From assembly GCA_028716705.1 (NCBI GenBank), contig JAQUPI010000009.1:1-44552 (forward strand): a DNA stretch of 44,552 bases, given 5' to 3'. The position numbers and the translations under genes are program-made. This stretch comes from Candidatus Omnitrophota bacterium. GTDB taxonomy: Bacteria > Omnitrophota > Gorgyraeia > Gygaellales > Profunditerraquicolaceae. Below the pieces are notes generated by a model. That model was not told where the DNA came from, did no database searches, and saw only the letters and a list, made by a program, of their open reading frames with translations. Shown here piece by piece: positions 4,351-33,566 of the stretch; positions within the stretch are counted from its first letter, which is position 1; every line of letters starts with the position of its first letter.

Positions 4351-5088
4351 TCATTTGCTCAAAGCGGTTTTATCTTCTTTGGTTCTACGGTATTCGGTAG
4401 GCGTCATCCCTGTGCGCTTTTTGAAGATCTTCATAAAGGAATCCGGGCTGTGGTAGCCCACCCTGTAAGCTACCTCGTTTACGCTCTGTCCGGGGTCCCT
4501 CAATAACTGCTTAGCCGAATCCAATTTTAAATTTAACCTGAATTCTTTGAAACTTTTCCCCGATCTTTTCTTGAATGCCCGGCTTAAATATTTGTAACTA
4601 AGGAACAATTCCTGGGATATTTCTTTCAGTGAAAGCGGCCTGTTGTAATTTTTCCTGACCAGCCGCTCAGCGACGGTTATCTTATCGGGTTTTTCCCTCT
4701 TTTCTTTCTCTTTTTCGTAAGCCTGATTCGGGGCGAGCAGCTTGCGCAGGGTATCTTTCACATTATTGATGTCAAACGGCTTTTCTATATATTCGTCCGC
4801 GCTTAAACGCAGCGCTTCGATGGCGATGTCTTTTGAGCTGTAACCGGTCATGATCACGACTTTGGAATACTTGTTTATCCTTCTCATCTTCTCCAAAAGT
4901 TCCAGGCCGTTCATATCCGGCATCACCACATCCAGGATTATCAGGTCAATATCATTTGGCCTGTTCAGGATACCCAGGGCATCCTTGCCGTTGGAAGCAG
5001 TGACGATGTCATACTCGTCAAAGGCGGAAATAAAAACCTCCCTGATATTCGGGTTGTCCTCCACGACTAATATTTTTTCTCCCGCCAT
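4351..5088 (-). CDS. Response regulator with receiver and AraC-type DNA-binding domains
   Basis: This 245-residue protein carries an N-terminal receiver domain (residues 4-118; acidic residues ED at 10-11, phospho-acceptor D53 in LDVVMPDMNG, lysine in YIEKPFD). A basic linker leads to a C-terminal double helix-turn-helix of the AraC/XylS class (about 135-238; LSYKYLSRAFKKRSGKSFKEF and the family signature VAYRVGYHSPDSFMKIFKKRTGMTPTEYR). It is therefore a phosphorylation-controlled transcription factor. It follows the dCache histidine kinase by 59 bases, the usual arrangement of a cognate pair, and is the last gene before the terminator at 4258-4295. I see no ribosome binding site directly upstream. 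Its targets are unknown; nearby candidates are its own operon or the sigma-54 regulator/TonB gene unit. Confidence 0.92.
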   Translation of the reverse strand: MAGEKILVVEDNPNIREVFISAFDEYDIVTASNGKDALGILNRPNDIDLIILDVVMPDMNGLELLEKMRRINKYSKVVIMTGYSSKDIAIEALRLSADEYIEKPFDINNVKDTLRKLLAPNQAYEKEKEKREKPDKITVAERLVRKNYNRPLSLKEISQELFLSYKYLSRAFKKRSGKSFKEFRLNLKLDSAKQLLRDPGQSVNEVAYRVGYHSPDSFMKIFKKRTGMTPTEYRRTKEDKTALSK

Positions 5089-5147
5089 ATTTTAGTTTTG
5101 GTTAAGACCCCTTCAGTATAGAGTTTTTGCGATGAATGTAAATGGCT

Positions 5148-6920
5148 TCAGTCTACTTTCAGCTGTCCCGAGTCTACCTCAAGGGGGAATTTGAGCGTAA
5201 AAATAGTCCCGCGGTTAACGCCGCTTTCTACCCGGATGTTCCCTTTATGCTGTTCTACGATCTTGCGGCTTATTGCCAGCCCCAGCCCCATGCCTCCGTT
5301 TTTTGTGGTATGGAAGGGCTCGAACAATCTGTCCTGCTCCTCTTTTGAGATACCGCTGCCGGTGTCTTTTATCTTGACTTCAACGCCTTCCGTAACCAGA
5401 TCCAGAGAAATGGTAAGCCAGCCGCCTCCCGGCATGGCGTTTATGGAATTGATGATCAAGTTTTGAAATACCTCCCTTAACCTCTCGGCATCCGCTTCGA
5501 TGAAGAATTCTTCGCTGTGCGAATTATATTTTAGATTGATCTTATTCTCCGATAATTCTTCCTTCATTATCTCCAATACGCCGTCCATTATCTCTTTAAC
5601 GTTCGTCCTGGATACACGTAATTCCGATTGGCTGGAGAAATTGGAAAGGTCCTTAAACATGCGCTCCATCCTGCCTACTTCTTCAGGAAGAATTCTTCGG
5701 AATTTATCTACGAACAGCTCATCTTTATGCCGCAGCGGAAAAAGCTGGATAAAAGACTTTATGGAGACAAAGGAGTTCTTCAGCTCGTGGGCTATCCAGG
5801 CCGCGGCCTCCCCGATCGTGGAAAGCCGCTCGCGTTCCCTCGCCTTTTTTAGCTTTTTGGTCATATAATTAAAGGAACGGATGAGCTCTCCGATATCATC
5901 CTTTATCCTCATGTCGATCCTATGGTCTAAGTTTCCCGCGGCGACGCTCTTTATCCGGGAGGCGAGGTTTTTGATCGGCCGGGCTAAAAGCCTGGCCATA
6001 AGCATACTGACCAGGACAGCCAGCAATTCACTGAGGATTATGATCGTCCACGACTGAGCCTTCATCGCCTTGGAAAAATGATACGCTTCCTCCTGTTTTT
6101 GGCGCAAAACGATCCCCCATCCCGTGCCCGGGACCGGGGCATAAGCGCTGATGAATTTCCCCTCCGATCTATCTTCTAGTTCGACGGATTCGGTTTTTCC
6201 GGCCAACACCGACTGTACCTCTTTCTGTCCCTTGAGATTCTCATTCCTCAGCACCCTCTTTTTATCGGGGTGCGCGATCAGCGTCCCATCGTCCGAGACC
6301 AAAAACGCAATGCCCGTTTTCCCTATTTTAATGTTATCCGCGATCTTCCACACGCCTCTTAAATTGACGTCGGCTATTAACGCCGCGATCACCTTGCCTG
6401 TCTTTTTTACCGGGACAGCCATGGTTACCAGGGGGGTATGGTTGTCGAGGAAATTTACTCCGGAGATATAGGCCTTTCCCCGGATAGCGGCTTCAAATGC
6501 CTCTTTCGGATAGCCCCTGGGATTTTCCCTGCCCAAATCCGATCCGGCTAACGCCGTGCCTGACGAGTCTACCGACATGGCGCGGATGAAATCCGGATTA
6601 TCCAGGACCAACTCTACCAATACCGTCTCCTGCTTCCACGGCGCGGGGTAAACCGCCGACAGGATCGAGCCGGTGGTGTTCAAAATATCCTGCGGCCCCT
6701 TGACGAATAACCCAATTTCATTGGCCGCCCTGGTCGAGATCTGATTGTAATCGCTTAGGACGGCGTTTCTAAGCGCGTCCTGGGAAGTCTGGATCAAAAG
6801 CGCGCCTAAGAGCACCACCGGAATGGTGACAATGGCCAAAAGTATTACCGCGATACGCACCCACAATTTGCGGTAAAATAAACCCAATAAACGCCTTTTT
6901 ATTTCCCTTTTTAAACTCAT
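5148..6920 (-). CDS. dCache-HAMP sensor histidine kinase
   Basis: This 590-residue membrane kinase has a first membrane helix at about 21-43 and a periplasmic double-Cache sensor domain at about 44-285 (repeated features GVWKIADNIKIGKTGIAF, DDGTLIAHPDK and APVPGTGWGIVLRQ). A second helix covers about 291-310, a HAMP domain about 311-360, and HisKA carries phospho-acceptor H378 in AAWIAHELKNSF. The ATPase domain has NLIINSINAMPGG, KDTGSGIS, EPFHTT and GGMGLGLAIS. Double-Cache domains commonly bind small extracellular ligands such as amino acids, polyamines or peptides. The start lies one base after the stop of the ABC transporter, so it is co-translated with the peptide-export genes. This suggests, by context only, that it senses the exported product. 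The extreme C-terminus (VDSGQLKVD) carries a 7-base direct repeat at DNA level and may be an extension. Confidence 0.93.
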   Translation of the reverse strand: MSLKREIKRRLLGLFYRKLWVRIAVILLAIVTIPVVLLGALLIQTSQDALRNAVLSDYNQISTRAANEIGLFVKGPQDILNTTGSILSAVYPAPWKQETVLVELVLDNPDFIRAMSVDSSGTALAGSDLGRENPRGYPKEAFEAAIRGKAYISGVNFLDNHTPLVTMAVPVKKTGKVIAALIADVNLRGVWKIADNIKIGKTGIAFLVSDDGTLIAHPDKKRVLRNENLKGQKEVQSVLAGKTESVELEDRSEGKFISAYAPVPGTGWGIVLRQKQEEAYHFSKAMKAQSWTIIILSELLAVLVSMLMARLLARPIKNLASRIKSVAAGNLDHRIDMRIKDDIGELIRSFNYMTKKLKKARERERLSTIGEAAAWIAHELKNSFVSIKSFIQLFPLRHKDELFVDKFRRILPEEVGRMERMFKDLSNFSSQSELRVSRTNVKEIMDGVLEIMKEELSENKINLKYNSHSEEFFIEADAERLREVFQNLIINSINAMPGGGWLTISLDLVTEGVEVKIKDTGSGISKEEQDRLFEPFHTTKNGGMGLGLAISRKIVEQHKGNIRVESGVNRGTIFTLKFPLEVDSGQLKVD

Positions 6921-6921
6921 G

Positions 6922-8646
6922 TCACCTTACGGTTTGTTCAAGCCACATCCTCCAATAGCTTCCCTTTTGGCCTAAAAGCTCGAGATGGCTTCCTGATTCC
7001 ACAATGCGGCCCTTTTCGATAAAGACGATTTTATCCGCGTATATTACCGAAGAGATCCGGTGACTGATGATGAAGGTGGTCCGTCCGGCCATTAATTTCC
7101 TGAAGGCCTCTTCGATGATAAGCCGTTCTGTTTCGGAATCCACGCAAGAGGTCGCCTCGTCTAAGATCAGAATATCCGGCTCTCTTAAAATCGCCCTGGC
7201 GATAGAAAGCCTCTGCCTCTGACCAAAAGACAACTTTATCCCCCGCTCGCCGATCTCTGTATCATATCCGCGCGGCAAAGACGAGATAAATTCTTCAGCG
7301 TTGGCTGACCTTGCCGCTGCCTTAACCGCGGCCATACCGGCACCGGGATTACCATAAAGGATATTTTCCCTGACCGTCCCGCTGAACAGGTAATCGTCCT
7401 GCAAGACCATGGCGACCCGCGAACGGTAGTACTTTAATTCTAACTCTTTGAGGTCATAGCCGTCAATATAAATCGCTCCTTCCTTAGGCTCATAGAACCT
7501 GAGGAGTAAATTGATAATGGTGCTTTTTCCCGAACCGCTTTTTCCGGCAAGGGCGACAACCTCGGCCTCTTTTACTTCCAGGTTTATCCCGGATAAAGCT
7601 GCCTTGCGGTTATCATAAGCGAAACTGACCCCCGCGAACTTTATATCCCCCCTGATCTTCGAAGGGCGCAGGGTTTTTGCCGTCTCCTTGATCCCCGGTT
7701 CTTCCGCTAATACCCGGTCGATGCGCGCCAGGGCGGCGCTTGCCTCCTGGTAGTAATTATTGATCACCACCATTTTGATCACCGGGAAAAAGAGCATCCC
7801 CAGATAGGAATAAAAAGCCATCAGCGCTCCAGGGCTGAGGCGGCCCAAAAACACCTCTTTAGCGCCGAACCAGATGAGCGTGACCAGCCCCAGGGAACTG
7901 AAAAATTCGGACATCATCCATAAGAAGATACCCAATCTTTCGCTGGCCAGGGAAGCCTTGACTATCTCTTTCTGTTTGGAATCGAACCAGCCCGCTTCGT
8001 ATTCTTCCTTGGCAAATCCGCTGACCACGCGTATGCCGTTAAATACCTCGTTAAGCCTTGCGGTCAGCTCCGCGTATTTCTGGCGCACAAAGGCCTGTTT
8101 TTGCCCCAGCCGGGGGCTAAGCTTTAAAAATACCAGGCTGAAGGCGGGCAAATAGATCAAAGATATTAAGGTAAGCTTAAAATTTATGAAAAATAAAATA
8201 GACAGGACAAAGAAGAAGGTGAAGAACGAATAGGCAAAATCAATAGCCCCGCCGAATAAGAATTTCCTGATACTCTCCACATCCCCTATGATCCCCGAGA
8301 TTATCCTTCCCGTGGGCGTATTCTCAACGTAACTTACGGATAATCTTTGCAGGTGCCAGTAGAGCTTGTTACGCAGGTCCAAGACCGTATTTTCGGAGAT
8401 TAAAGCAAACAGATATTCCCTTAAAAAGCCAAAATAAAATTTCAGGCTGAAAACGATGATCAATCCCGCGGCCACCCAGTTAAGGAGCGCGGAGTTCTTA
8501 GCGGATAAGATCTCGTCAATGATCAGCTTGATCGCCCAGGGGAAAGCTAAACCTAAAAGGTTGGTAACCAGGGTGGCGCAAAGCGCGAGCAAGGCCTGTT
8601 TTTTGTAAGGGGCAAGGAGAAGGAAGAATTTCTTCGCATTTTTCAT
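6922..8646 (-). CDS. ABC exporter, fused membrane and ATPase domains (MsbA/LmrA-like)
   Basis: This 574-residue half-transporter has six predicted membrane helices in the first ~300 residues (type IV exporter fold). The nucleotide-binding domain has Walker A GKSGSGKST at 368-376, Q-loop VLQDD near 414, signature LSFGQ at 472-476, Walker B ILILDE at 492-497 and an H-loop ISHR near 533. It lacks an N-terminal C39 peptidase, so it exports without cleaving a double-glycine leader. It starts inside the last codons of the radical SAM maturase (4-base ATGA overlap) and ends one base before the dCache kinase. The natural inference is that it exports the modified peptide; lipid or drug export is the alternative suggested by the fold alone. 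Confidence 0.93.
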   Translation of the reverse strand: MKNAKKFFLLLAPYKKQALLALCATLVTNLLGLAFPWAIKLIIDEILSAKNSALLNWVAAGLIIVFSLKFYFGFLREYLFALISENTVLDLRNKLYWHLQRLSVSYVENTPTGRIISGIIGDVESIRKFLFGGAIDFAYSFFTFFFVLSILFFINFKLTLISLIYLPAFSLVFLKLSPRLGQKQAFVRQKYAELTARLNEVFNGIRVVSGFAKEEYEAGWFDSKQKEIVKASLASERLGIFLWMMSEFFSSLGLVTLIWFGAKEVFLGRLSPGALMAFYSYLGMLFFPVIKMVVINNYYQEASAALARIDRVLAEEPGIKETAKTLRPSKIRGDIKFAGVSFAYDNRKAALSGINLEVKEAEVVALAGKSGSGKSTIINLLLRFYEPKEGAIYIDGYDLKELELKYYRSRVAMVLQDDYLFSGTVRENILYGNPGAGMAAVKAAARSANAEEFISSLPRGYDTEIGERGIKLSFGQRQRLSIARAILREPDILILDEATSCVDSETERLIIEEAFRKLMAGRTTFIISHRISSVIYADKIVFIEKGRIVESGSHLELLGQKGSYWRMWLEQTVR

Positions 8647-10001
8647 GCCTGATGCCGCTTATTTACCATATCGTATTCCAGTTTGATCAGTTCCGGGATG
8701 ATCCGGTCAAAATACTCCCTTTTACAGGATAAGGAAGAGAAATTCCCCCGTTCAAGATAAGAAAAGAGCCGGCATCCTCCCTGGCACATTGGTACATACG
8801 GACAATCCGGAGCGCATTTATCCCAGGCATCGATGTTCAGAAAGTCATCCCTCCGCTCGTTGAATCCCTCGTTACGCACATCTCCGACGGAGAATTCCGG
8901 ATAACCCAAAAGCGAATTGCATTTATAGATCAGGCCCTTCGGGTCAATGGTCACGCCGCCGTCTTGCATGGTCAAAGGGCAGGCATTGATCGCCAGGCCG
9001 GAAGTGCGCAGCTTAAGCCCCCTTTTCAATAATTCGCGCTTGATACCGACCACTTCCTTGAATAATCCGTCTTTTTCCAGAAAAGAAAGACAGTGGCTTA
9101 GTTCTACCGCGGAAGGATCCTTTTTCGGGCCTAAGCGCGGGACAATCGGAGCGAAGATCAGATAATCGAGTTTACGCAGCAGGCCTTCTTTCTCAAGATA
9201 ATCGAAGAGCGGATAAATATGCGGAAAATTATTCCGGTCGAAATTCCCGGCAATGGCCACCTTTACCTTATCGATGATACCCTTTATATTTTCTATGATC
9301 AGGTCAAAGGTGGGTTTGCCGTCGCTAAAGGGCCGGTTCTTATTGTGCGCTTCCCTGTCCCCGTCGAGGCTGATGCGCACCTCATCCAGGCCCACGGTCA
9401 AAAACTTTTCTATCAATTCCGGATAGATCAGGCTGCCGTTGGTGATGATCCCGAAGGAAAAATCGATCCTGTTTTTCCGCGCCCACTCCTGCATATGCCA
9501 GGAGATATCATAGATCGGCCGGATATTCAAGAGGGGCTCTCCGCCGTAGTAAACCAGGTAGATTTTCTTCAGGTTGCGCTTTTGCGCGTGGCGGATCAGC
9601 CATTGGATCACCAGGTCGCTCGTCTCTTTATCCATGAATACCCGCTCCCGCACCGAACCCTCGAAGCAATAGACACAGTTAAAATTACAACTGTAGGTAG
9701 TCAGGATAGTGGTTTCAAAGGTCAATTTATCCGACTCATACTTCAGCTGCCGGAAGAAATCCTTTAACTTGCGCTTCTCCTCTTCTTCATTCTCGACAAC
9801 GATCCCGTTCTCTTTTAAGGAGGCCAGGTAACCCCTGGTCACCAGACTTAGGTCCTTTATCTTCACTGTCTCGATCTTATCGAGGATATTCTTCAGTTCC
9901 GGGTTTATCTTGATCAACGCCTGCGTGCGCACGTTGAAGAGAAGATATCCGCCCGGATGCGGGTAATCCTTGACCCAGAGATTGAATTTAGATTGCTTCA
10001 T
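8643..10001 (-). CDS. Radical SAM/SPASM peptide maturase
   Basis: This 452-residue enzyme shows the three-part architecture of RiPP-modifying radical SAM proteins. Residues 1-90 resemble a peptide-recognition (PqqD-like) winged helix (YLLFNVRTQALIKINPEL, then LKENGIVVENEEEE). The radical SAM core has C105, C109 and C112 in CNFNCVYC and the YYGGEPLL segment. The C-terminal SPASM domain holds C341, C361 (GX4C motif GLIYKC), C396, C400, C406, C410 and C426, enough for two auxiliary iron-sulfur clusters. Such enzymes install thioether, C-C or related crosslinks in a short ribosomal peptide. The 31-residue peptide gene 84 bases upstream is the obvious substrate. No good ribosome binding site precedes the ATG at 10001. 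Its N-terminal pattern recalls, from memory, the group named geopeptide maturases; I cannot verify that here. Confidence 0.93.
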   Translation of the reverse strand: MKQSKFNLWVKDYPHPGGYLLFNVRTQALIKINPELKNILDKIETVKIKDLSLVTRGYLASLKENGIVVENEEEEKRKLKDFFRQLKYESDKLTFETTILTTYSCNFNCVYCFEGSVRERVFMDKETSDLVIQWLIRHAQKRNLKKIYLVYYGGEPLLNIRPIYDISWHMQEWARKNRIDFSFGIITNGSLIYPELIEKFLTVGLDEVRISLDGDREAHNKNRPFSDGKPTFDLIIENIKGIIDKVKVAIAGNFDRNNFPHIYPLFDYLEKEGLLRKLDYLIFAPIVPRLGPKKDPSAVELSHCLSFLEKDGLFKEVVGIKRELLKRGLKLRTSGLAINACPLTMQDGGVTIDPKGLIYKCNSLLGYPEFSVGDVRNEGFNERRDDFLNIDAWDKCAPDCPYVPMCQGGCRLFSYLERGNFSSLSCKREYFDRIIPELIKLEYDMVNKRHQA

Positions 10002-10046
10002 TTAATGAACAATTAAAATCAAATAAAAATTATGTTTTGCAGTAAA

Positions 10047-10066
10047 CTCTGGTCGGCCGCCCAGAG
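10047..10066 (-). promoter_or_regulatory. Hairpin between peptide gene and maturase gene
   Basis: CTCTGG and CCAGAG form a 6-bp stem around an inner CGGCCG; the whole 20-base element is a palindrome with one mismatched pair. It starts 19 bases after the peptide stop and is followed on the minus strand by TTTA and a generally T-rich stretch, but not by a true T-run. It could be a partial terminator or an mRNA-stability element that keeps peptide output above maturase output, or a DNA operator. The role is inferred. Confidence 0.5.
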
Positions 10067-10085
10067 AAATACCGCAAGGAATTAA

Positions 10086-10181
10086 CTACCTTATGCGTAG
10101 ACCTTCGGTTCCCGTTGGAAAACAGCAACCGCGCAAGCTCATTGCGGAAACATCATCCGTTCCTTTTGTGATTATCTCCAT
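10086..10181 (-). CDS. Candidate RiPP precursor peptide, 31 residues
   Basis: This short frame runs from ATG at 10181 to TAG at 10086. It is preceded by a very strong ribosome binding site (AAAGGAGGTGACA) that overlaps the last codons and TGA of the solute-binding protein; only two bases separate that stop from this start, so the two genes are translationally coupled. The peptide has an acidic/hydrophobic first half (MEIITKGTDDVSAM at 1-14) that could serve as leader. The second half has G18 followed by CCFPTGTE (19-26) and a basic end LRIR (28-31). C19 and C20 are its only cysteines and are the likely modification sites. It lies directly upstream of a radical SAM/SPASM maturase and ABC exporter. 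Membership of a known precursor family cannot be checked here, and the peptide's fate is inferred from context. Confidence 0.8.
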   Translation of the reverse strand: MEIITKGTDDVSAMSLRGCCFPTGTEGLRIR

Positions 10182-10183
10182 TG

Positions 10184-11779
10184 TCACCTCCTTTCGTTTT
10201 TTAGATACCAATCCTTTATCGTATAATAGGGCATATATAAGGTAAAGAATTCATCGACATTATCAAATTTTGCTGAAACTGCGTGAAATACATAAGGAAA
10301 ATAAAGGAAGCAGGCCGGCTGGTCCGCATATATAAGCTGGTGGATTTTTCGATAAATCTCTTCCCGCTCTTTTTTATCTAGTGTAACTTCTGCCAATTCA
10401 AATAATTTATCGACATTTTCGTTCTTAAAAATCCATAATTTAGAAATTCGTTCAGATTGTCTACCAAGCCAATATTCCAAACCAGCGCTTTCCGCATCAT
10501 CGCCTATAGCCATAGGGAAGCTTAACTGTGCCTGCGGCTTATTGTTTTCAAAAAATTCCTTAGTTAGTTTTTCTTCTCCGGTGCATAACACCACCTTAAT
10601 CTTTATACCAATTTCCTGGAGCTGCTGGCGAATAAGCATGATTATCTTCTGGTAAATCTCACTCCTTGTGTCCACTAACACTCTGAGTTCAAATTCTTCA
10701 CCGCTTCTTTCTAATATCCCATCGCCGTCACTATCTACCCATCCCGTTTCTTTCAATAATTTCTTTGCTTTTTCAGGATTATATTTATAAGTCTTAACAG
10801 CGGAATTAAATAATGACGACTCGGGATAAAACGGGCCGCTGCATTCTATGCCATAACCATAGGCTAATTTCTCAATTAATTCTTTTCTATTTATAGAATA
10901 GGCAACTGCTTCGCGTAAATTCTTGTCGCTTAATAAAGAGTTATCTATTTTATAGAAAATAGCGTAATAAGAATCTACTGGGAAAGCATAGGTTTTAAAT
11001 GAATCGTCGTTTTTTATCAATTCGTAATCTTCTCTTTCAATAAAAGTGGCGTAATTTACTTCCCCACGCATCAGCGCATTCCAGAGGCTGCTTGAATCTG
11101 GATAAACTTTGACGATAATCTTATCCAAATATGGCCTGCCTTCATAGTAATCCACATTATATTCTAACGCGATCTGCTCGTCCTTCAATTCTTTGAATTT
11201 GAACGGCCCGGTGCCTATCGGATGAAAATTAAAAGCGTTGTTTTTTAATGATCCTCTTTCAAGGATATGCTTAGGAACTACCTCTCTGGTTAATCTATAA
11301 ATGAATGACGCGGAAGGTTTCTTTAAAATTATTCGGAAAGTATATTTATCATCTGCCTGAAAATCGCCGGCCAATTCAAAAATTTGGCGAAAGGGAGAAT
11401 CCGTACCCGGATCTATGATCTTATCGTAAGTGAATTTTACGTCATCAGCAGTACATTCAACGCCGTCATGAAAACGTACTCCTTTTCTTAAATGAAAAGT
11501 ATAAATCAGTCCGTCAGCGGATATATCCCAGCTCTCTGCCAGATCCGGATCAATTTCTCCTTCGGAGTTTAGCCGCACTAGGCGGTTAAAGATCAAATCC
11601 TGCAAAGACATGGAAACGCTGGTGGTAGTGATAAGCGGATTGATAATGGTGGGTTTATTGCGGGTGCCCCAGATAAGCGTACCGCCGTATGGTTTTCCCT
11701 TGGGGACTTCTTTGGTCGCGCCTTCGGCTTCGGCAATGGTAAGTGTGAGCATGATCAGCAGGCTGGTTATGATACGCAT
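10184..11779 (-). CDS. Extracellular solute-binding protein, family 5 (oligopeptide/nickel type)
   Basis: This 531-residue protein has a secretion signal in the first ~21 residues (MRIITSLLIMLTLTIAEAEG); no lipobox cysteine is seen. The mature part begins with GGTLIWGTRNKPTIINPL and has the family-5 core LVRLNSEGEIDPDLAESWDISADGLIYTFHLRKGVRFHDG, as in DppA/OppA proteins that capture peptides, heme or metal chelates in the periplasm. No DppBCDF-type permease or ATPase genes occur in the window, so it is unlikely to be part of a complete local uptake system. It is the first gene after a predicted sigma-54 promoter, and its stop codon lies inside the ribosome binding site of the 31-residue peptide gene. 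This points to binding or sensing of the peptide product. That role is inferred. Confidence 0.93.
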   Translation of the reverse strand: MRIITSLLIMLTLTIAEAEGATKEVPKGKPYGGTLIWGTRNKPTIINPLITTTSVSMSLQDLIFNRLVRLNSEGEIDPDLAESWDISADGLIYTFHLRKGVRFHDGVECTADDVKFTYDKIIDPGTDSPFRQIFELAGDFQADDKYTFRIILKKPSASFIYRLTREVVPKHILERGSLKNNAFNFHPIGTGPFKFKELKDEQIALEYNVDYYEGRPYLDKIIVKVYPDSSSLWNALMRGEVNYATFIEREDYELIKNDDSFKTYAFPVDSYYAIFYKIDNSLLSDKNLREAVAYSINRKELIEKLAYGYGIECSGPFYPESSLFNSAVKTYKYNPEKAKKLLKETGWVDSDGDGILERSGEEFELRVLVDTRSEIYQKIIMLIRQQLQEIGIKIKVVLCTGEEKLTKEFFENNKPQAQLSFPMAIGDDAESAGLEYWLGRQSERISKLWIFKNENVDKLFELAEVTLDKKEREEIYRKIHQLIYADQPACFLYFPYVFHAVSAKFDNVDEFFTLYMPYYTIKDWYLKNERR

Positions 11780-11938: not shown

Positions 11939-13831
11939 CTACCATTCTATGGCCGCACCGCCCTCAAAATATCTCTTCGGGGCGGGAAAGAAGTAATCCG
12001 ACCAGTACCTGCTGTCAAAAAGATTATAGATATTCAGAAAGAAGGTCAAGGCCTTGACCTTTTGCGAGGCCTTTAAGTCAAAGATAAATTTCCTATCTTT
12101 AGGCTGAAATATCTCGTAGGTATTATTCCAGTAATCGTAACGGCCGTTAAGGTAAAACGTAAAACCGGTTTTGCCCTTATAATCAAGCCCTAAGTCAAAA
12201 CTCTGCCTGGGGCTTCCCGCGTCCTGTACGGTCTGCCGGGTTGCCCTGTCTTCGATATCGTTAAAGGCCGCGGAGGCGAAAAGATCCAAACTTTCGAACA
12301 GCTCATATCCGGCCCGCGCCTCTACTCCCTGCCTTCTGAATTTCTGGAAATTCTTCTGGATCCATTCTCCCTGGGCGTTCGCGGCGCCCGAGATAGCATC
12401 CTTAACATCCTGCCTGTATAAGGAAAGCTTAAGCCATAAGGGAGAAAGGGCCCGGCTCTCCGCGCCCAGTTCATATACCCGGGCACGCTCCGGCTTGATC
12501 TGCGGATTATCCCCGGTAACCCCGGGAGAAACTCCGGCGTAATACTTCCAGAGTAAAGGCGGCGCGTTAAAAGCGCGGGAGAAGTTGAAACGGACCAGGG
12601 TATCCTTAAACTCCTCAAAATGGTATACGAACCCGGCAGACGGGCTGAACGCGCTGCCAAATTCGCTATTGTCGTCGAAACGTAACCCTGAATTCAAGTC
12701 CCAGGGCCCCAATTTCAAAGTATAGTTCGCGAAAGGCGCCTGTAAGTACAGGCTTTTGGCTTCTTCCAGGTACGTTGTCTTGAGAACATCGTAATCCGAA
12801 TCAAAGCCTACAGTCAGCAAGTCTTTCCCGCGGGGATGGGCCGAGGCGACCGCGCTTATCTCATAAAGCACATCCCTGCTCCTGACTACGTCGGGAGGCG
12901 CGTCTGTTAGCGGGACATCTGTCGCTACAGAAGAAAAATTCTTGGTGATAATGTCCTGGCGCGAATTTTTGAAGTCCACATTTAGATCCGCTCCTTGAAA
13001 TTTCTTATTCCAGCCGAATTTCCCATACTGGACCCGGTAAGGCGCCGCCGACCAGGTCCCGTCGGGGAATTCCCCGCTGTTTGCATCGCCCTGGCTAAAA
13101 CCGAATGACCCGGCTATTTTGCCTTTCTCCCGCAGATCATAAGAGAGCTTGCCGAATGCCTTTTTCTCCAGCACGTCGTCTCTCGGGCCTTTTCCTCCTG
13201 AATCCATATAACTGGAAAAAAGATAATACCCCAGGCCCGCGGCTTTTCCGGAGAGGTCAAAACTCTCTTTTTTGGTGCTGAATCCCGCGTATGAAGAAGT
13301 GACCTTGCCTTTAGGGACCAGCTTATTTCCTGTATCCTTGGTGATCACGTTTATAACACCTCCGAGGCTTGATCCCCAGGCGCTGGAGGCAGGCCCTTTG
13401 ACGACCTCTATCCTGGAGATATCTTCGATGGGGAACTTGGCGGGGTTGACCTGTCCCGATGCTTGAGTATTTAAAGGTATCCCGTCGATCATTACCCTTA
13501 CCTGGCGGGAAGCGGAACCCTGGATACTAATGGAAGTCGCGCGGCCAAAACCGCGGCGGGGGTCGATATAAATACCCGGGAGATAATTGAGGGCCTCGCT
13601 TAAATCTCTGGCAGGCAAAAGATTTAATTCTTCCCCGGTGATCACCTCTACGTTTTCGGATACCCGGCTTAAACCAAGGGGAGCCCTGCGGCTGGTTATT
13701 ACTATCCTCTCTAATTCAACTTCTTTTTCCTGAGCTTGAGCGTTTCGCGGCAGGACGATAGCCAGCCCCGTAAATAAGACCGCTCCGGCCAGATTGATCC
13801 GGGTAGATATCACTGAAGGTCTTTTACTCAC
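11939..13831 (-). CDS. TonB-dependent outer-membrane receptor (BtuB/FepA-like)
   Basis: This 630-residue protein has a signal peptide cleaved after about residue 33 (PRNAQA/QEKEV) and a TonB-box-like segment (LERIVITSRR at about 39-48). A plug domain follows at about 50-165 (LSEALNYLPGIYIDPRRGFG, VMIDGIPLNTQ, IEVVKGPASSAWGSSLGGVINVITK), then a 22-strand-type barrel ending in an aromatic tail (GGAAIEW). The start is GTG at 13831 with AAGG five bases upstream. Receptors of this type import large or scarce ligands such as cobalamin, metal-siderophores and other metallophores. It lies 29 bases after the sigma-54 activator and just upstream of the peptide operon. Specificity cannot be read from sequence; the length is near BtuB, but I see no cobalamin riboswitch. 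Confidence 0.93.
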   Translation of the reverse strand: MSKRPSVISTRINLAGAVLFTGLAIVLPRNAQAQEKEVELERIVITSRRAPLGLSRVSENVEVITGEELNLLPARDLSEALNYLPGIYIDPRRGFGRATSISIQGSASRQVRVMIDGIPLNTQASGQVNPAKFPIEDISRIEVVKGPASSAWGSSLGGVINVITKDTGNKLVPKGKVTSSYAGFSTKKESFDLSGKAAGLGYYLFSSYMDSGGKGPRDDVLEKKAFGKLSYDLREKGKIAGSFGFSQGDANSGEFPDGTWSAAPYRVQYGKFGWNKKFQGADLNVDFKNSRQDIITKNFSSVATDVPLTDAPPDVVRSRDVLYEISAVASAHPRGKDLLTVGFDSDYDVLKTTYLEEAKSLYLQAPFANYTLKLGPWDLNSGLRFDDNSEFGSAFSPSAGFVYHFEEFKDTLVRFNFSRAFNAPPLLWKYYAGVSPGVTGDNPQIKPERARVYELGAESRALSPLWLKLSLYRQDVKDAISGAANAQGEWIQKNFQKFRRQGVEARAGYELFESLDLFASAAFNDIEDRATRQTVQDAGSPRQSFDLGLDYKGKTGFTFYLNGRYDYWNNTYEIFQPKDRKFIFDLKASQKVKALTFFLNIYNLFDSRYWSDYFFPAPKRYFEGGAAIEW

Positions 13832-13860: not shown

Positions 13861-15228
13861 TTATTTTTTCAGGCCCATGCTCTTCATCTTATTAAAGAGC
13901 GCATTGCGGTGGATGCCCAATAACCTGGCTGCCTTGGTTTGATTTCCGCTTACACGCTCTAATACCCCTTCGATATACTGCTTCTCGAAGTCCTTGCTTG
14001 CCTGCTTTAGCGCCCCGCCCCCGCCGAGCTTCTTTTCTATGCTGCCTTTTATAAACAGATCAAAAGGCAAATCCTTGGCAGTTATGAGCTTGCCGTCCTT
14101 TAAGGCTGCCAGCCGCTCGATAATATTCTTTAATTCACGGACATTCCCGGGCCAGTCGTATTCCAAGAGGCAATCCATGGCTTCTTTCGTCAAGCCTACG
14201 ATGTCTTTTCTAAACGCCTGGTTGTATCTTTTTAGAAAATATTCCACGAGCAACGGTATATCTTCCCTGCGTTCCCTTAAGGCGGGTAAGTTGACGGGGA
14301 CCACGTTCAAGCGGTAATATAGATCCTCCCTGAACTTCTCGCTATTGGCCGCGCTCTTCAAATCGGTATTCGTCGCCGAAATAATGCGCACGTCCACCTT
14401 GATCAGTTTATTCCCGCCGAGCCTCCTGATCTCCTTTTCTTCCAGCGCCCTCAGGAGATTGGCCTGGACATCCAATCTTAATCCGGAAATTTCGTCAAGG
14501 AAGAGAGTCCCTTCATCAGCCAATTCGAACATCCCCAGTTTCTGGCTGGTGGCATCGGTAAAAGCGCCCTTTTCGTGCCCGAAAAGCTCGCTCTCGAGGA
14601 GGTTTTCCGGGATCGCGGCGCAGTTGATAGGTATGAACGGCTTTTGTTTCCGGGGGCCGCGGAAGTGTATTGCCCGGGCGATCAACTCCTTTCCCGTGCC
14701 GCTTTCTCCAAAGATCAATACTGTAGCGTTGGTCTGGCTTACCTTTTCGATTATTTCGAATACCTCTCTGATCTTAGGGCTTCTGCCTATGATATTATCA
14801 AACCCGGCTTCCTCGCGCTGCCAACGCAGGTAAATCACTTCCCTGATCAGCCTATCCTGTTCTAAGGCCTTGCGCGCCACGGTGATCACTTCTTCCATGT
14901 CGAACGGCTTGGTAATGTAATTGCAGGCTCCTGACTGCATAGCTTCAACCGCCCTTCGCGCGCTGTCAGTGGCCGTCGCCATGATCACGGAAAGATTCTT
15001 GTCGTATTCTTTGATCTTGCGCAACACCTGCATGCCGTCCATGTCAGGAAGGGCGATATCCAGGAAGACAAGGCGCACCTGTTCGGCGGCGATCTTTTCC
15101 AGCGCTTCCTTGCCGCTCCTGGCGGTGGAGACCGTGAATTCCTCTTCTAATATAGCCGTCAGCGATTCCAGCACCGCCGGCTCGTCGTCAACGACTAAAA
15201 CAACAGGCAGATTTTTCTCTTTTTTCAT
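13861..15228 (-). CDS. NtrC-family sigma-54-dependent response regulator
   Basis: This 455-residue regulator has a receiver domain (residues 8-120, DDE at 14-16, phospho-acceptor D57, lysine in ITKPFD). A central AAA+ domain carries Walker A GESGTGKE at 174-181, the sigma-54-contact loop GAFTDA at 221-226, Walker B LFLDEI at 242-247 and WPGNVREL further on. A C-terminal Fis-type helix-turn-helix ends the protein (NQTKAARLLGIHRNALFNKM). The contact loop has D in place of the second G of GAFTGA, a variant also found in working activators. It is preceded by an extended -10 promoter and heads a probable two-gene unit with the TonB receptor. The sigma-54 promoter and 18-bp palindrome upstream of the peptide operon make that operon its likely target. 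Its kinase is not obvious; the dCache or the PAS kinase could serve. Confidence 0.94.
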   Translation of the reverse strand: MKKEKNLPVVLVVDDEPAVLESLTAILEEEFTVSTARSGKEALEKIAAEQVRLVFLDIALPDMDGMQVLRKIKEYDKNLSVIMATATDSARRAVEAMQSGACNYITKPFDMEEVITVARKALEQDRLIREVIYLRWQREEAGFDNIIGRSPKIREVFEIIEKVSQTNATVLIFGESGTGKELIARAIHFRGPRKQKPFIPINCAAIPENLLESELFGHEKGAFTDATSQKLGMFELADEGTLFLDEISGLRLDVQANLLRALEEKEIRRLGGNKLIKVDVRIISATNTDLKSAANSEKFREDLYYRLNVVPVNLPALRERREDIPLLVEYFLKRYNQAFRKDIVGLTKEAMDCLLEYDWPGNVRELKNIIERLAALKDGKLITAKDLPFDLFIKGSIEKKLGGGGALKQASKDFEKQYIEGVLERVSGNQTKAARLLGIHRNALFNKMKSMGLKK

Positions 15229-15329: not shown

Positions 15330-16766
15330 TCAGTTATCAGGGAGAATAACCGTTATATTTAACTCTTTTGGCAAAGCGATTATCATTCTGTCTCTATATT
15401 TAAAGATGACGCGGCATTGCCGCGTTAAAGAAGGCTCGAGTTCAAAGAAATCCTCTTCTCTTATATATAAGATCCGCGGCTTCAAAAGATCCGCTTTTAA
15501 GCTTTCCTCTAATCTCTCCCTGGTATCTATGTGTTTAACCCGGGTGAGCTCTTGAGAATAGAATAAGATCGCGGCCGAATCCTGCCTGTAAACTATAAAA
15601 TCATATTCCGGAAGCTGCCTCAGCAGAAGGTCAATGGCGGGAGACATGCGCACGGTTTCCGCGAAACGTTTGCTGCGGATATTCAATGGCAGGCATAAAA
15701 GGGCCAGGGACGCGGCGATCAGGATGAATTTAATACCTGCGGCGATCTTCGTTTTAAGCCCTTCCTTAAGAAGATGGTCCAGCGCGATGCCGGCCAAAAG
15801 CGCTGTTGCCGCGTACATCGGCAGTATGAAATAATGCAGCTTCTGCCTGCCGAACGAGAAAGCCGCAGGGAAAATAAGCGCCCAAATGACCAAAAGATAA
15901 AGCTCATGATCTTTATTCCTCTTTGCCTCCTTGACCGCCAAGTACCCTCCATAAACGGCCAGGGGAAGAAAATAAAAATACTTGTTTATTATCGCCGTTA
16001 TATAATAATGCCAGGGGACATTAAAGCCGGGCGATTTCATAAGGTGAAGGAAATTCCAGCCCCACCATCGCGAGAATAAAGTATTTTTGTCCAGCCAGAT
16101 CCAAAGCAACACAGGCCCGATAGCGAGCAGCAGCCCCAAGATAAAAAACGGCCGGAAGAATTCTTTAAACCTGCCTAACAGGACCAAATAAACGAAAACG
16201 ATCGCCAGGGGAGCCAGTCCGGAAATATCTTTGCTGAATATGGCTAAAGAAGTGGATAAACCGAATAAAAGGTAGTATTTCTTTGAACGCCTTTGCGCCA
16301 AAATAAATGACAGTATCGCTAAAGTAATGAATAATGTAACCGGAAGGTCCATCCGGCATTGGCGCGAAAGACGCACTATATGGTTGGTAAGCATAAAAAC
16401 CGCGCCCGCGAAGAATCCGGTCCATTGGTTCTTAAGTAACTTGCCGAAATAAAATATAGCCGCGGTCAATGCCAGGGCGCTGAGCATGGAGAACAGCTTT
16501 GCCGCAAATGTGGACACGCCTAAGATTTTAAAGAAAAACCCCGTTATCCAGATGCAGAGCGGAAAATGATAATAAAATACCCCCTGATATACGGGATCAT
16601 AAAGGCCGAGCCAGCTGTTGGTGCGCAGGGCCTCTTTCGCTACCGCCGCGTAATTACAGGAATCCGTATCCAGCCCTCCCGGAACCCAGGAATAGCTGAA
16701 GATCAATATCGCCGCCATTCCCAAAAGCAGGATTAAAAGATTATCCTTTTTTGCTATCTCAGCCAT
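15330..16766 (-). CDS. Membrane glycosyltransferase, family 39 / ArnT-like
   Basis: This 478-residue integral membrane protein has about ten hydrophobic helices. It begins with a PMT/ArnT-style N-terminus: a first helix, then a loop with the acidic pair GGLDTDSCNYAAVAKEALRTNSWLGLYDP, where such enzymes bind the polyprenyl-phosphate sugar donor. The soluble C-terminal domain (about 390-478) is small. Enzymes of this fold move a sugar from a lipid carrier to lipid A, protein or another envelope glycolipid on the outer face of the inner membrane; donor and acceptor are unknown here. It overlaps the upstream membrane family-2 glycosyltransferase by 8 bases, so the two probably act together. It is the last gene of the long directon that begins at the EF-G-like gene. 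Confidence 0.88.
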   Translation of the reverse strand: MAEIAKKDNLLILLLGMAAILIFSYSWVPGGLDTDSCNYAAVAKEALRTNSWLGLYDPVYQGVFYYHFPLCIWITGFFFKILGVSTFAAKLFSMLSALALTAAIFYFGKLLKNQWTGFFAGAVFMLTNHIVRLSRQCRMDLPVTLFITLAILSFILAQRRSKKYYLLFGLSTSLAIFSKDISGLAPLAIVFVYLVLLGRFKEFFRPFFILGLLLAIGPVLLWIWLDKNTLFSRWWGWNFLHLMKSPGFNVPWHYYITAIINKYFYFLPLAVYGGYLAVKEAKRNKDHELYLLVIWALIFPAAFSFGRQKLHYFILPMYAATALLAGIALDHLLKEGLKTKIAAGIKFILIAASLALLCLPLNIRSKRFAETVRMSPAIDLLLRQLPEYDFIVYRQDSAAILFYSQELTRVKHIDTRERLEESLKADLLKPRILYIREEDFFELEPSLTRQCRVIFKYRDRMIIALPKELNITVILPDN

Positions 16767-18273
16767 TCTTTTCTTCGGGGATATTTTTATATACTTTTTC
16801 CGTGGAATAGAATTGCATATATTTGCCTAAAGCCAGCCTTGTCTGCGCGTCCAGGGCGGGGGTAGAACCTAAGATCAATATAATTACCGGCGCCAGGGCC
16901 CATTCTATGACCATCATTATATACTTAAACCATTTTACGTCAGGCGGGCGCTTGGGAAGGATGGTCATGCTCAGGACGATCCAGATCAAGCTTGTCCCCA
17001 GGGCGAAATTAAGAAGGAGACCGCCTATTCTCGGCAGGTTATAGCCTATGGAAGTCTGGCTGAAGAATGCCCCGCCGAACAAAATGGGCAGCGGCGTGAT
17101 CAGCATGATGATCATCGCCCAGACCGCCCAGCTTATATGGCTTTCCAAAAGATTGAACGACCTCCTGATCTTTTTCGCTAAGGGTATTTTTTTATCATGG
17201 ATCAAGCCCTCGACAAGAAAAGGGAAATTCTCTACGCCCCAGGCCCACCTTCTCTTTTGCTTATACTGGACAACGACGGTCTTGAAGATGCTGGTGGAAT
17301 AAGCGGCGTCCATCGAAACAGTGATATACAGGGGGACGACGCGGTAATCACCCTTGTAATATAGGAACGCTTTCCAATAGACTACGGAATCGTCTGAGAT
17401 CATGTTTACCGGCCAGTAGTTTATGGCTACGAGCGTTTTAAAACTCATGCTGTGGCTGGAAAAAGTGACGAATTTTTCCAGGCGCATGCTTTCGATCATC
17501 TGGCAGAAAGAACCGCTTGTTTCCACCAATCTGGCAAAAGCCGGAGCGTACCAGATGTTATTATTGTATACAGGCATGGGCTGGTAACTCGCCTGATGAG
17601 GCCTGGATGAGGTCAGGAAATGGTAAGTAAGGCAGGCAAAATACTGCTTATCCACACAGGTATCAGCGTCAAAACATGAAATAAGGATGTCTTCGTAGGC
17701 AATCGAGCGTTTATCCAAGAATTCTTTAGCCTGTTTTGCGGCCCAGGTAGCGTTGGCGCCTTTGGTCCGGCTTTCTCCCGGGATCCCATCGGGATGGAAA
17801 GTGGAGATGTATCCAAAGAACCCGGACTTGAATTCCTCTTCCAGAATGGCCGCGTTAGAGCGCGAGTCGGAGCTGCGCTCTTCGAAAGCCATCACCACGA
17901 TCATCTTCTCTTTGGGATATTGGCAATCCGCGAGCGATTTCAAGGAAGGCCGCAGTATCTTGAGCCCCTCCTTATACACAGGGAAAATAATCAAATGGTA
18001 AACCTTTGCCCAATCTTTTTTCGGAGCCAGGCCAACACAATCCGATAACCAATCGCGATTTTTCTCATTCGACAGTTTCTTATAAGCCAGGACCAGAAGC
18101 GTGGTAAGATAGATCGTGCGGATATTCCAATAGAACTCAAAAATAATGATCAGGATCGCGCTGAGTATGGGCCTGAATATCGAGAGGCAAGCCAAAAAAA
18201 TAAGTATGCCCCAGGAGATGCAGGCCGGGATAATTTCGAGGTATCTTTTAGTCTTCGCGTTCCCGTTTTTCAT
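16759..18273 (-). CDS. Membrane-bound family 2 glycosyltransferase (cellulose-synthase-like)
   Basis: This 504-residue protein has two N-terminal membrane helices (about 14-60) and a cytosolic family-2 catalytic domain. The domain shows nucleotide-sugar-binding start IFPVYKEG, the metal-binding CFDADT, an acidic SDDSVVYW site and the QXXRW-type motif QKRRWAWG. Several C-terminal membrane helices follow (about 370-490). This layout is that of processive or polyprenyl-linked beta-glycosyltransferases that make or transport polysaccharide. It overlaps the PEGA-protein gene by 26 bases and the ArnT-like gene by 8. Which polymer or lipid it serves cannot be told from the sequence. Confidence 0.88.
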   Translation of the reverse strand: MKNGNAKTKRYLEIIPACISWGILIFLACLSIFRPILSAILIIIFEFYWNIRTIYLTTLLVLAYKKLSNEKNRDWLSDCVGLAPKKDWAKVYHLIIFPVYKEGLKILRPSLKSLADCQYPKEKMIVVMAFEERSSDSRSNAAILEEEFKSGFFGYISTFHPDGIPGESRTKGANATWAAKQAKEFLDKRSIAYEDILISCFDADTCVDKQYFACLTYHFLTSSRPHQASYQPMPVYNNNIWYAPAFARLVETSGSFCQMIESMRLEKFVTFSSHSMSFKTLVAINYWPVNMISDDSVVYWKAFLYYKGDYRVVPLYITVSMDAAYSTSIFKTVVVQYKQKRRWAWGVENFPFLVEGLIHDKKIPLAKKIRRSFNLLESHISWAVWAMIIMLITPLPILFGGAFFSQTSIGYNLPRIGGLLLNFALGTSLIWIVLSMTILPKRPPDVKWFKYIMMVIEWALAPVIILILGSTPALDAQTRLALGKYMQFYSTEKVYKNIPEEKNG

Positions 18274-19210
18274 CGGACTGCCTTAACCTCATCAATTCTT
18301 GGAACGGAGAGAGCTTGGCGTTTAGATCCAATTTATAAAGATTATCGTAAAGGTTGCCGTCTTCGGCCCTTTGCGTGTCCAAGAAATAAAGCGTATCGGT
18401 GCGGGTATCGTAAAAAGAAGGGGTATTTTTTTTAGCCAGGCTTAACAATATTACCGGTTCGCTCCGGGAGTCCGCTTCCATGACCGCGATATTCCTAAGG
18501 CCGATTATTATTAAGTGGTAACTGTCAGAATGCCAATACGCGTCAATTATCGGTTTATAGGGGTAATCGATGACAAAAGGCAGCCTGCAGAAGAGCTTAT
18601 GCTGCTGGGAAATATTGGTTATCCCGATCTTCCGGGAATTGAAATATAGGACTATTTCCCTGTCCGGGGATATCTTCCATTTATCCGCGGGAGGATCCAA
18701 AGGCACTGACTCAGCGACCCGTTCGGACCTGCGCCCCTCTGAATCGGGTTTATATATACCTCCGTCATCGGGGTTGACATAATAGATCGCCCCCCTTTCC
18801 TCGTCCGCCCAAAAAGTAGAGAGTGTTTCGCTGTTTATTTGTTTAATATCGGGCCTCAAAGGAAAAAGGATGATCTTTTCCAGAAACGTTACTTTGCCCG
18901 CGCTTATACCGGCCTGGTTTATCCATGGGTAATGGCCTTCTAATTCAAGCCGCACGGTGTAGTTTCCAGGGAGAAGCTCCGTTACTGTGGCCGGGGTCTT
19001 TGCCGGGAATAAAGTCTCATTCAGAAAGATATTGGCTCCTTGAGGCTGGGTTTTCAAAACCAGCAGCCCCGTCCTGGTGAACTTAAATGCCCGCCGGTCG
19101 AATTTATACCCCAGGGCAAAGGATAAGATCAAGGGCAGCCCCGTGATAAAAATAGCCACACTGGAATAAAACAAGAATGCCCTTATCCTTTGTTCATTGC
19201 GGGTGATCAT
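18248..19210 (-). CDS. PEGA-domain membrane-anchored protein
   Basis: I place the start at the ATG at 19210, giving 320 residues. The open frame extends to 19363, but that part is antisense-like composition lying over folE and has no fold. Residues 8-28 form a membrane anchor (AFLFYSSVAIFITGLPLILSF). A PEGA domain follows (about 45-100: GLLVLKTQPQGANIFLNETLFPAKTPATVTELLPGNYTVRLELEGHYPW), a surface/envelope beta-sandwich often linked to polysaccharide or S-layer attachment. The remaining ~200 residues look like beta-propeller repeats (ISPDREIVLYFNSRKIGITNIS). The gene starts two bases after the folE stop and overlaps the downstream glycosyltransferase, so it is probably involved in the same envelope process. 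The exact function is unknown. Confidence 0.85.
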   Translation of the reverse strand: MITRNEQRIRAFLFYSSVAIFITGLPLILSFALGYKFDRRAFKFTRTGLLVLKTQPQGANIFLNETLFPAKTPATVTELLPGNYTVRLELEGHYPWINQAGISAGKVTFLEKIILFPLRPDIKQINSETLSTFWADEERGAIYYVNPDDGGIYKPDSEGRRSERVAESVPLDPPADKWKISPDREIVLYFNSRKIGITNISQQHKLFCRLPFVIDYPYKPIIDAYWHSDSYHLIIIGLRNIAVMEADSRSEPVILLSLAKKNTPSFYDTRTDTLYFLDTQRAEDGNLYDNLYKLDLNAKLSPFQELMRLRQSDEKRERED

Positions 19211-19212
19211 TA

Positions 19213-19770
19213 TTATGGCTTTATCAGCGCCAGGCACTCCGCGCGCGTTTTTTCGTTCTGTTTGAATACGCCCCTTACGGCGGAAGTGACCGTTAATGTG
19301 CCGGGTTTTTTGATCCCGCGCATGGACATGCACATATGTTCGGCTTCGATGATTACCATGCATCCTTGAGGCTTTAATTTTGACATAATGATCTCGGCGA
19401 TCTGCGTAGTAAGCCGCTCCTGAACCTGCGGGCGCTTGGCTAATATGTCGACGACTCGCACCAGCTTGCTTAATCCGGTTACCCGCCCGCCTTTGGGTAT
19501 GTAAGCGATATGGGCTTTGCCTAAGAACGGGATAAGGTGGTGCTCGCAGCAGGAATATAAGGGTATATTCTTGAGCAAGATTATTTCCTCGTGTTTCTGG
19601 TCGAGGACGACCTCGAGTTCTTTCCTGGGGTCCAGCTTCATCCCGGAGAAGATCTCTTCATACATTTCAGCGAATCTTCGAGGAGTATCCTGAAGGTCTT
19701 TTCTTTTTGGGTCTTCTCCGATGGCTTCTAATATCTCCCTGACCGCCCTTTCGATCTTTTTCTTGTCCAT
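19213..19770 (-). CDS. folE: GTP cyclohydrolase I
   Basis: This 185-residue enzyme matches the usual FolE length. It catalyses the first step of tetrahydrofolate (or queuosine-precursor) synthesis, turning GTP into 7,8-dihydroneopterin triphosphate plus formate. Zinc ligands C75 and H78 are in [11 protein letters not shown], and C147 is in [11 protein letters not shown]; the family motif [20 protein letters not shown] is intact. It lies 13 bases after mnmE and two bases before the PEGA-protein gene, in a run that also carries folC and purH, so folate/one-carbon metabolism is a theme of this stretch. Confidence 0.97.
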
Positions 19771-33480: not shown

Positions 33481-33566
33481 GTACTCTTCACCTGGTTTTT
33501 CAATTTATTAGGTCTAACCTCCTTAAGGCCGGCAATTTTACTCTCAATATCTTGTGTCTAGCTAAT

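Follow-up and report, generated by a model that had tools for sequence, protein, structure and literature searches.

The window, meaning the whole stretch of DNA that was analysed (44,552 nt), carries a run of genes on the minus strand that begins with a sigma-54-dependent (NtrC-type) response regulator (nt 13861–15228), a probable regulator whose gene adjoins the receptor gene in several relatives. It is followed by genes for a TonB-dependent outer-membrane receptor (nt 11939–13831), a family-5 (OppA/AppA/NikA-like) extracytoplasmic substrate-binding protein (nt 10184–11779), a short peptide (nt 10086–10181), a radical SAM/SPASM maturase of 452 aa (nt 8643–10001), an MsbA-type ABC exporter that lacks a peptidase domain (nt 6922–8646), a histidine kinase with an extracytoplasmic dCache domain (nt 5148–6920) and a response regulator with an AraC-type DNA-binding domain (nt 4351–5088). 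An RNA hairpin (nt 10037–10077, minus strand) is predicted between the peptide and maturase genes.

The peptide gene runs from ATG to TAG and encodes 31 aa (MEIITKGTDDVSAMSLRGCCFPTGTEGLRIR), in which a leader (MEIIxxGxD) and a core (CCxPxGT) are conserved. Its length is below the usual limits of gene finders, so that it is easily overlooked. A reading made from the sequence alone had proposed the frame as an overlooked precursor of the adjoining maturase, with a ribosome-binding site formed by the final codons of the binding-protein gene, and the latter can be read directly: the gene (nt 11779–10184) ends in GAA AGG AGG TGA, its stop lies 2 bases before the peptide ATG, and the motif AAGGAGGT (nt 10186–10193, minus strand) is 4 bases 5′ of that ATG. 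The same reading called this the strongest ribosome-binding site in the window. Two copies of the string are present, about as many as expected by chance (mean 1.7), and for the second (nt 33517–33524, minus strand) the closest listed start (33441) is 75 bases away. Only the copy at the peptide gene stands in the position of a ribosome-binding site, so it is the position that counts and not the string. The proposed translational coupling to the binding-protein stop holds in the window but is not general, since a distance of 0–4 nt to the upstream stop was found only in the window, L074, L077 and L090, and the gaps elsewhere are 13–233 nt.

Relatives of the maturase were gathered from genome contigs, from the family of the window, from a sample of the phylum and from two further families. 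A homologous peptide of 29–40 residues lies just 5′ of the maturase gene in every relative with intact upstream DNA, giving 20 distinct peptide-bearing loci in Omnitrophota (window included) and three in Nitrospirota; the outcome that the sequence-only reading named as refuting, absence of homologous peptides upstream of related maturases, is therefore not what is seen. The Omnitrophota consensus is MEIIxxGxDxV...LxCCWPPGTE, and C-C-x-P-x-G is invariant in a core set of 18 sequences. Examples of the homologues are MEVIRKGSDNVSKVGPLGCCYPPGTENLRVR (L010), MEIIKQGSDNVFEAGPLNCCFPAGTLSLRAE (L056), MEVIKEGTEIVHEISVLGCCWPPGTVSWTNPEPEE (L061) and MGEIKIINKGTDDVNQMAALGCCWPPGTETMVRPNEEEAK (L065). In two more distant members (L068 and L069) and in the Nitrospirota peptides (L016–L018), the Cys pair is retained but the core is not complete. 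The relatives mostly have W where the window has Phe, and acidic tails where the window has a basic one. In the core initially described as CCFPTGTE with a basic tail, the invariant residues are the Cys pair, Pro and Gly; Phe and the basic tail are local, and Glu is variable. Among the crosslink partners suggested at the same time, the adjacent cysteines and Pro are invariant and Thr is frequent, but Glu varies and Phe is replaced by W, Y or M.

Purifying selection, which had been named as a check, was found in 12 peptide pairs (pN/pS of 0.25–0.36, with synonymous differences of 0.5–1.0 per site). When both strands of 22 related loci (window included; 723 kb) were filtered for frames of 25–60 aa with a ribosome-binding site and Cys-Cys, the peptide was recovered at every intact locus, together with only two unrelated frames. 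A profile of the peptide, searched against 384 Omnitrophota genomes, matched 19 times at E ≤ 1.5e-6, and each of these matches lies in this operon. Two of them (G241 and G145) were without a maturase and could be taken for orphan peptides, but they are truncations, the contig ending directly after the receptor and binding-protein genes; wherever the contig continues, a radical SAM maturase follows the peptide. These three results rule out a chance ORF, and on these comparisons the short frame (nt 10181–10086, minus strand) is a genuine gene. No precursor family of Pfam or NCBIfam was matched by the window peptide, and sub-threshold geopeptide matches (NCBIfam) were found only for the peptides of L016 and L061. 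Very weak radical SAM matches (L071–L073, 26–31% identity) belong to other enzymes and have no such peptide.

Short peptides of other kinds were noticed near more distant enzymes. In a Desulfobacterales maturase relative (L020), the match at nt 10001 is preceded, at a distance of about 277 bases, by a Cys-rich peptide of another kind, MEWIVEPEDETQRLEGAPGCCCMCSVTCSNGGGCTYYTPFCPSFG. In a Clostridia maturase relative (L021), a short peptide that has a ribosome-binding site of its own, MIKIIKKARKSKSILKSSIAFSKDSCCGQRA, lies a little way before the match at nt 10001. At L071 (28% identity), a peptide frame (...VENCGGGSAPSDSTRVVICLDKP) lies 500 bases upstream of the match at nt 1501 and is followed by an apparent decayed second copy.

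The maturase has an invariant CX3CX2C motif (C105/C109/C112) with a Radical_SAM Pfam match, and C-terminal SPASM-type cysteines that are invariant at C341, C361, C400, C406, C410 and C426 and nearly so at C396. Two features used to recognise the RaS-RiPP class are accordingly present: the cysteine motifs in the maturase, and a short precursor gene that is adjacent to it and conserved with it. The best NCBIfam model is TIGR04280 (geopeptide maturase), with 290 bits against a cut-off of 400; other Omnitrophota maturases tested scored 284 and 309 bits, whereas those of Nitrospirota L016 and L017 exceeded the cut-off (567 and 563 bits). In a phylogenetic tree, with midpoint rooting only, the Omnitrophota maturases form a branch separate from the geopeptide maturases. 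Since the Nitrospirota enzymes pass the TIGR04280 cut-off and the Omnitrophota enzymes do not, we place the latter as the sister group of the geopeptide maturases. The radical SAM proteins retrieved by a plasmid search were all distant (below 60% identity).

An AlphaFold model of the maturase (pLDDT 91) shows an N-terminal β3-α3 domain (three strands, three helices). Its best structural matches are CteB, TigE and SuiB, led by the thioether-forming CteB (5why/5wgg) with TM scores of 0.64–0.70 in a whole-chain search. CteB has a RiPP recognition element, and the N-terminal domain of the model is compatible with such an element. The predicted fold suggests leader docking and crosslinking chemistry.

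A strong hairpin between the peptide and maturase genes was present in all 23 loci folded. In the window, the inner stem pairs nt 10061–10066 with 10047–10052 around an 8 nt loop, GCGGCCGA (nt 10053–10060). In the subclade of the window, which forms one side of a branch of the maturase tree with support of 88/89, nine loci (window, L010, L011, L012, L013, L055, L056, L058 and L059) share an identical loop core, GCGGCCG. Across these nine sequences, five of the six stem pairs have changed on both sides; L056 and L058 are one base off register in the alignment, and each forms all six pairs when read in its own register. The stem covariation score is 0.546 compared with 0.273 after shuffling (0 of 500), and drops when the partners are slid; relatedness inflates covariation counts, so the slid controls outweigh the shuffles. 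Outside the subclade, other hairpins occupy this place, many of them terminator-like. Rfam gave no match at gathering thresholds or at E ≤ 5, which speaks against a known RNA, and a genome-wide repeat was rejected because the other two copies of GGCGGCCGAC in the genome do not fold in this way. Strings resembling GRPTR and WAADQ can be read across the hairpin, but a second peptide was rejected because their frame relative to the peptide varies by locus and the stem covaries.

The role shared by these hairpins is most likely to provide more peptide than enzyme message. The invariant loop of the subclade suggests an additional partner. It contains a palindrome (CGGCCG) flanked by purines, and loops of this kind resemble dimer-forming kissing loops. 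Transcripts could pair loop to loop, or a dedicated protein could read the loop.

The usual gene order in relatives is TonB-dependent receptor, family-5 binding protein, peptide, radical SAM maturase, ABC exporter, dCache histidine kinase and AraC-type regulator. It is kept across several Omnitrophota families, and the core from receptor to kinase and regulator recurs in loci with enough sequence. The exporter gene is not adjacent in L084, L087, L088 and L089, and the downstream regulator is variable in some loci. At L082, the operon is followed by two more genes that resemble those for TonB-dependent receptors (nt 15844–19401). The operon is sporadic, being found in 4/108, 3/37 and 8/32 genomes of three families. 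Among 107 genomes of the window's family, receptors and binding proteins of the window type (at least 54% and at least 64% identity, respectively) are confined to the four maturase genomes, the next-best matches having about 26–34% identity; no receiver-only genomes were found. A contig labelled Ignavibacteriales (L012, nt 1–1310) carries a partial copy with 74% identity over maturase residues 1–337. The maturase frame is cut short there and no exporter follows, as in a transfer remnant or a chimeric or misbinned contig.

The Nitrospirota relatives retain receptor, peptide and maturase. Adjoining these genes is a histidine kinase gene beside a binding-protein gene (L016, nt 4478–7054; L017, nt 4673–7582; L018, nt 5091–7659), and ABC_sub_bind was identified in the binding proteins of L016 and L017, the two scanned of the three loci. 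This suggests that the pairing of binding protein and kinase is a feature common to the Omnitrophota and Nitrospirota loci.

The exporter of the window has only ABC_membrane and ABC_tran above the Pfam cut-offs, and so differs from peptidase-coupled bacteriocin exporters, which have a C39 peptidase domain. A scan of selected neighbours identified no metal gene in the operon, and no gene for a leader-removing protease was identified. The receptor is most similar in the PDB to BtuB, with a weak match also to the PQQ transporter/YncD, and the nearest PDB relative of the binding protein is AppA. Searches of the window's genome (about 94% complete) revealed no permease of the Opp/Dpp type; the genome has no OppC match and, judged by sequence, only phosphate-type and sugar-type ABC permeases. 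OppC-type matches elsewhere in the genome were found in 15 of 20 host genomes. The absence of such a permease from the window's genome fits poorly with cytoplasmic import and well with periplasmic sensing. As that genome has no OppC match, the binding protein may work in the periplasm there and hand its ligand to the kinase.

Among known systems, geopeptides (TIGR04229/TIGR04280) are related through the best-scoring maturase model, and the L016 and L017 loci, whose maturases pass that model, encode a CC peptide and a TonB receptor ahead of the maturase. The Omnitrophota loci differ in the low scores and separate branch of their maturases, and in having a CCxPxGT core, a family-5 binding protein and an ABC exporter, none of which were seen in the Nitrospirota loci. 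The window peptide does not match TIGR04229, for which the threshold is 30 bits; the best relative, L016, reached 11.2 bits. The term geopeptide gave no match in the literature searched. Ranthipeptide and sactipeptide maturases (CteB, PapB, CefB and Clo7bot types) have the same domain order, in which a docking-type domain at the N terminus is followed by the radical SAM core and the SPASM region, but the scores of the window maturase are all far below the cut-offs of these families, and the short CC core contrasts with their multi-Cys precursors.

A parallel to the operon is methanobactin (MbnA/B/C with MbnT, MbnE and MbnM), whose operons comprise a precursor, a modifying enzyme, an exporter, a TonB receptor and a binding protein (PMC3621798). 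MbnT is the TonB receptor needed for uptake of Cu-methanobactin, and MbnE is described as OppA/AppA-related (PMC7558416). All these components have counterparts in the window, including a TonB receptor and an OppA/AppA-like binding protein within the operon. The systems differ in the modifying enzyme (radical SAM/SPASM instead of MbnB/MbnC, with no MbnB-type family in the 19 window proteins scanned with Pfam), in the exporter (ABC instead of MATE) and in regulation (two-component system instead of sigma/anti-sigma). No paper was found in the literature searched that joins a radical SAM enzyme, a TonB receptor and a precursor peptide with a histidine kinase or a metallophore. The available part of a Cariaco Basin survey reports that Omnitrophota biosynthetic clusters are expressed, and names no such peptide (PMC9902471).

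What the sequences establish is the gene and its conservation, its one-to-one pairing with the maturase, and an operon that is likewise conserved. The 31-mer is very probably the precursor of a modified RiPP, and its product is likely to be exported and then re-captured or sensed. The N-terminal half (MEIIxxGxD) would act as a leader that docks on the N-terminal domain of the maturase, which would then form a crosslink in the CCxPxGT core, probably a Cys thioether as judged by the chemistry of relatives. The ABC exporter would release the product, which would re-enter through its own TonB-dependent receptor and be caught by the family-5 binding protein, while the dCache kinase would report it to the AraC-type regulator, which would tune the operon. 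The return leg resembles that of methanobactin, which makes a metallophore the most likely role, with the Cys pair among the putative metal ligands. On balance we favour this explanation as a whole, a radical-SAM RiPP that is exported and returned through its own receptor in the manner of methanobactin, most likely as a metallophore; taken separately, the choice of metallophore over signal is made tentatively, at a little below even chances.

The main rival to the metallophore is a cell-cell signal (pheromone): the modified peptide would be exported, re-admitted by the receptor and handed to the dCache kinase by the binding protein, with the AraC-type regulator completing an autoinduction loop in which metal plays no part. 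In most loci with enough sequence, the biosynthesis genes are indeed followed by a kinase and an AraC-type regulator, and in Nitrospirota a kinase and an ABC_sub_bind protein stand beside receptor, peptide and maturase. An Opp-type permease was not found in the window's genome, and the possibility that the binding protein passes its ligand to the kinase in the periplasm, and so serves sensing, keeps the pheromone reading alive; the lack of receiver-only genomes (0/107) also speaks for it. Sensors, however, occur in metallophore operons too, energised TonB receptors are known chiefly as importers of scarce nutrients and metal chelates, and the most conserved feature of the peptide is its Cys-Cys pair. 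We regard a signal as rather unlikely.

A small redox cofactor or protein-modifying group, with the receptor serving for salvage, is brought to mind by PQQ, itself a radical-SAM RiPP, and by the weak PQQ transporter/YncD match. With BtuB as the best match that similarity is generic, a dedicated exporter and sensor would be unexpected, and no candidate cofactor-using enzyme was noticed in the operon, making this role improbable. An antibacterial peptide is equally improbable. An exporter does follow the maturase, and the combination of a radical SAM enzyme with an ABC exporter is common among bacteriocins, but no immunity gene was identified, the exporter has no C39 peptidase domain, and the producer's own operon encodes a strictly co-inherited receptor and binding protein. 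Lastly, the frame might serve only as a regulatory leader ORF or for translational coupling of the maturase, its peptide having no role as a product, as the hairpin after the frame in every relative and the overlap of the ribosome-binding site with the upstream gene in the window would allow. This is most improbable, given that the amino acids are conserved despite heavy synonymous change, the invariant CC-P-G is unrelated to codon repeats, the coupling is not conserved, and a RiPP-type radical SAM maturase always comes next where the contig continues.

The peptide system is a variant within the radical-SAM RiPPs, next to the geopeptides, with an unusually informative operon. It may, as a tentative possibility, represent a new class of radical-SAM RiPP metallophores (or peptide signals) in Omnitrophota, equipped with a receptor, a periplasmic binding protein and a two-component sensor of its own, and with a new RNA element in one subclade. 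Its precursor falls below the usual length limits of gene finders, in a phylum almost without cultured members. Radical-SAM RiPPs are many and their known biological roles few; here, genes for export, return and sensing travel with the peptide, so that a role in metal scavenging or signalling is directly testable. The uncharacterised maturases of the geopeptide type, which are curated as no more than a hypothetical group, thereby gain a first functional hypothesis.
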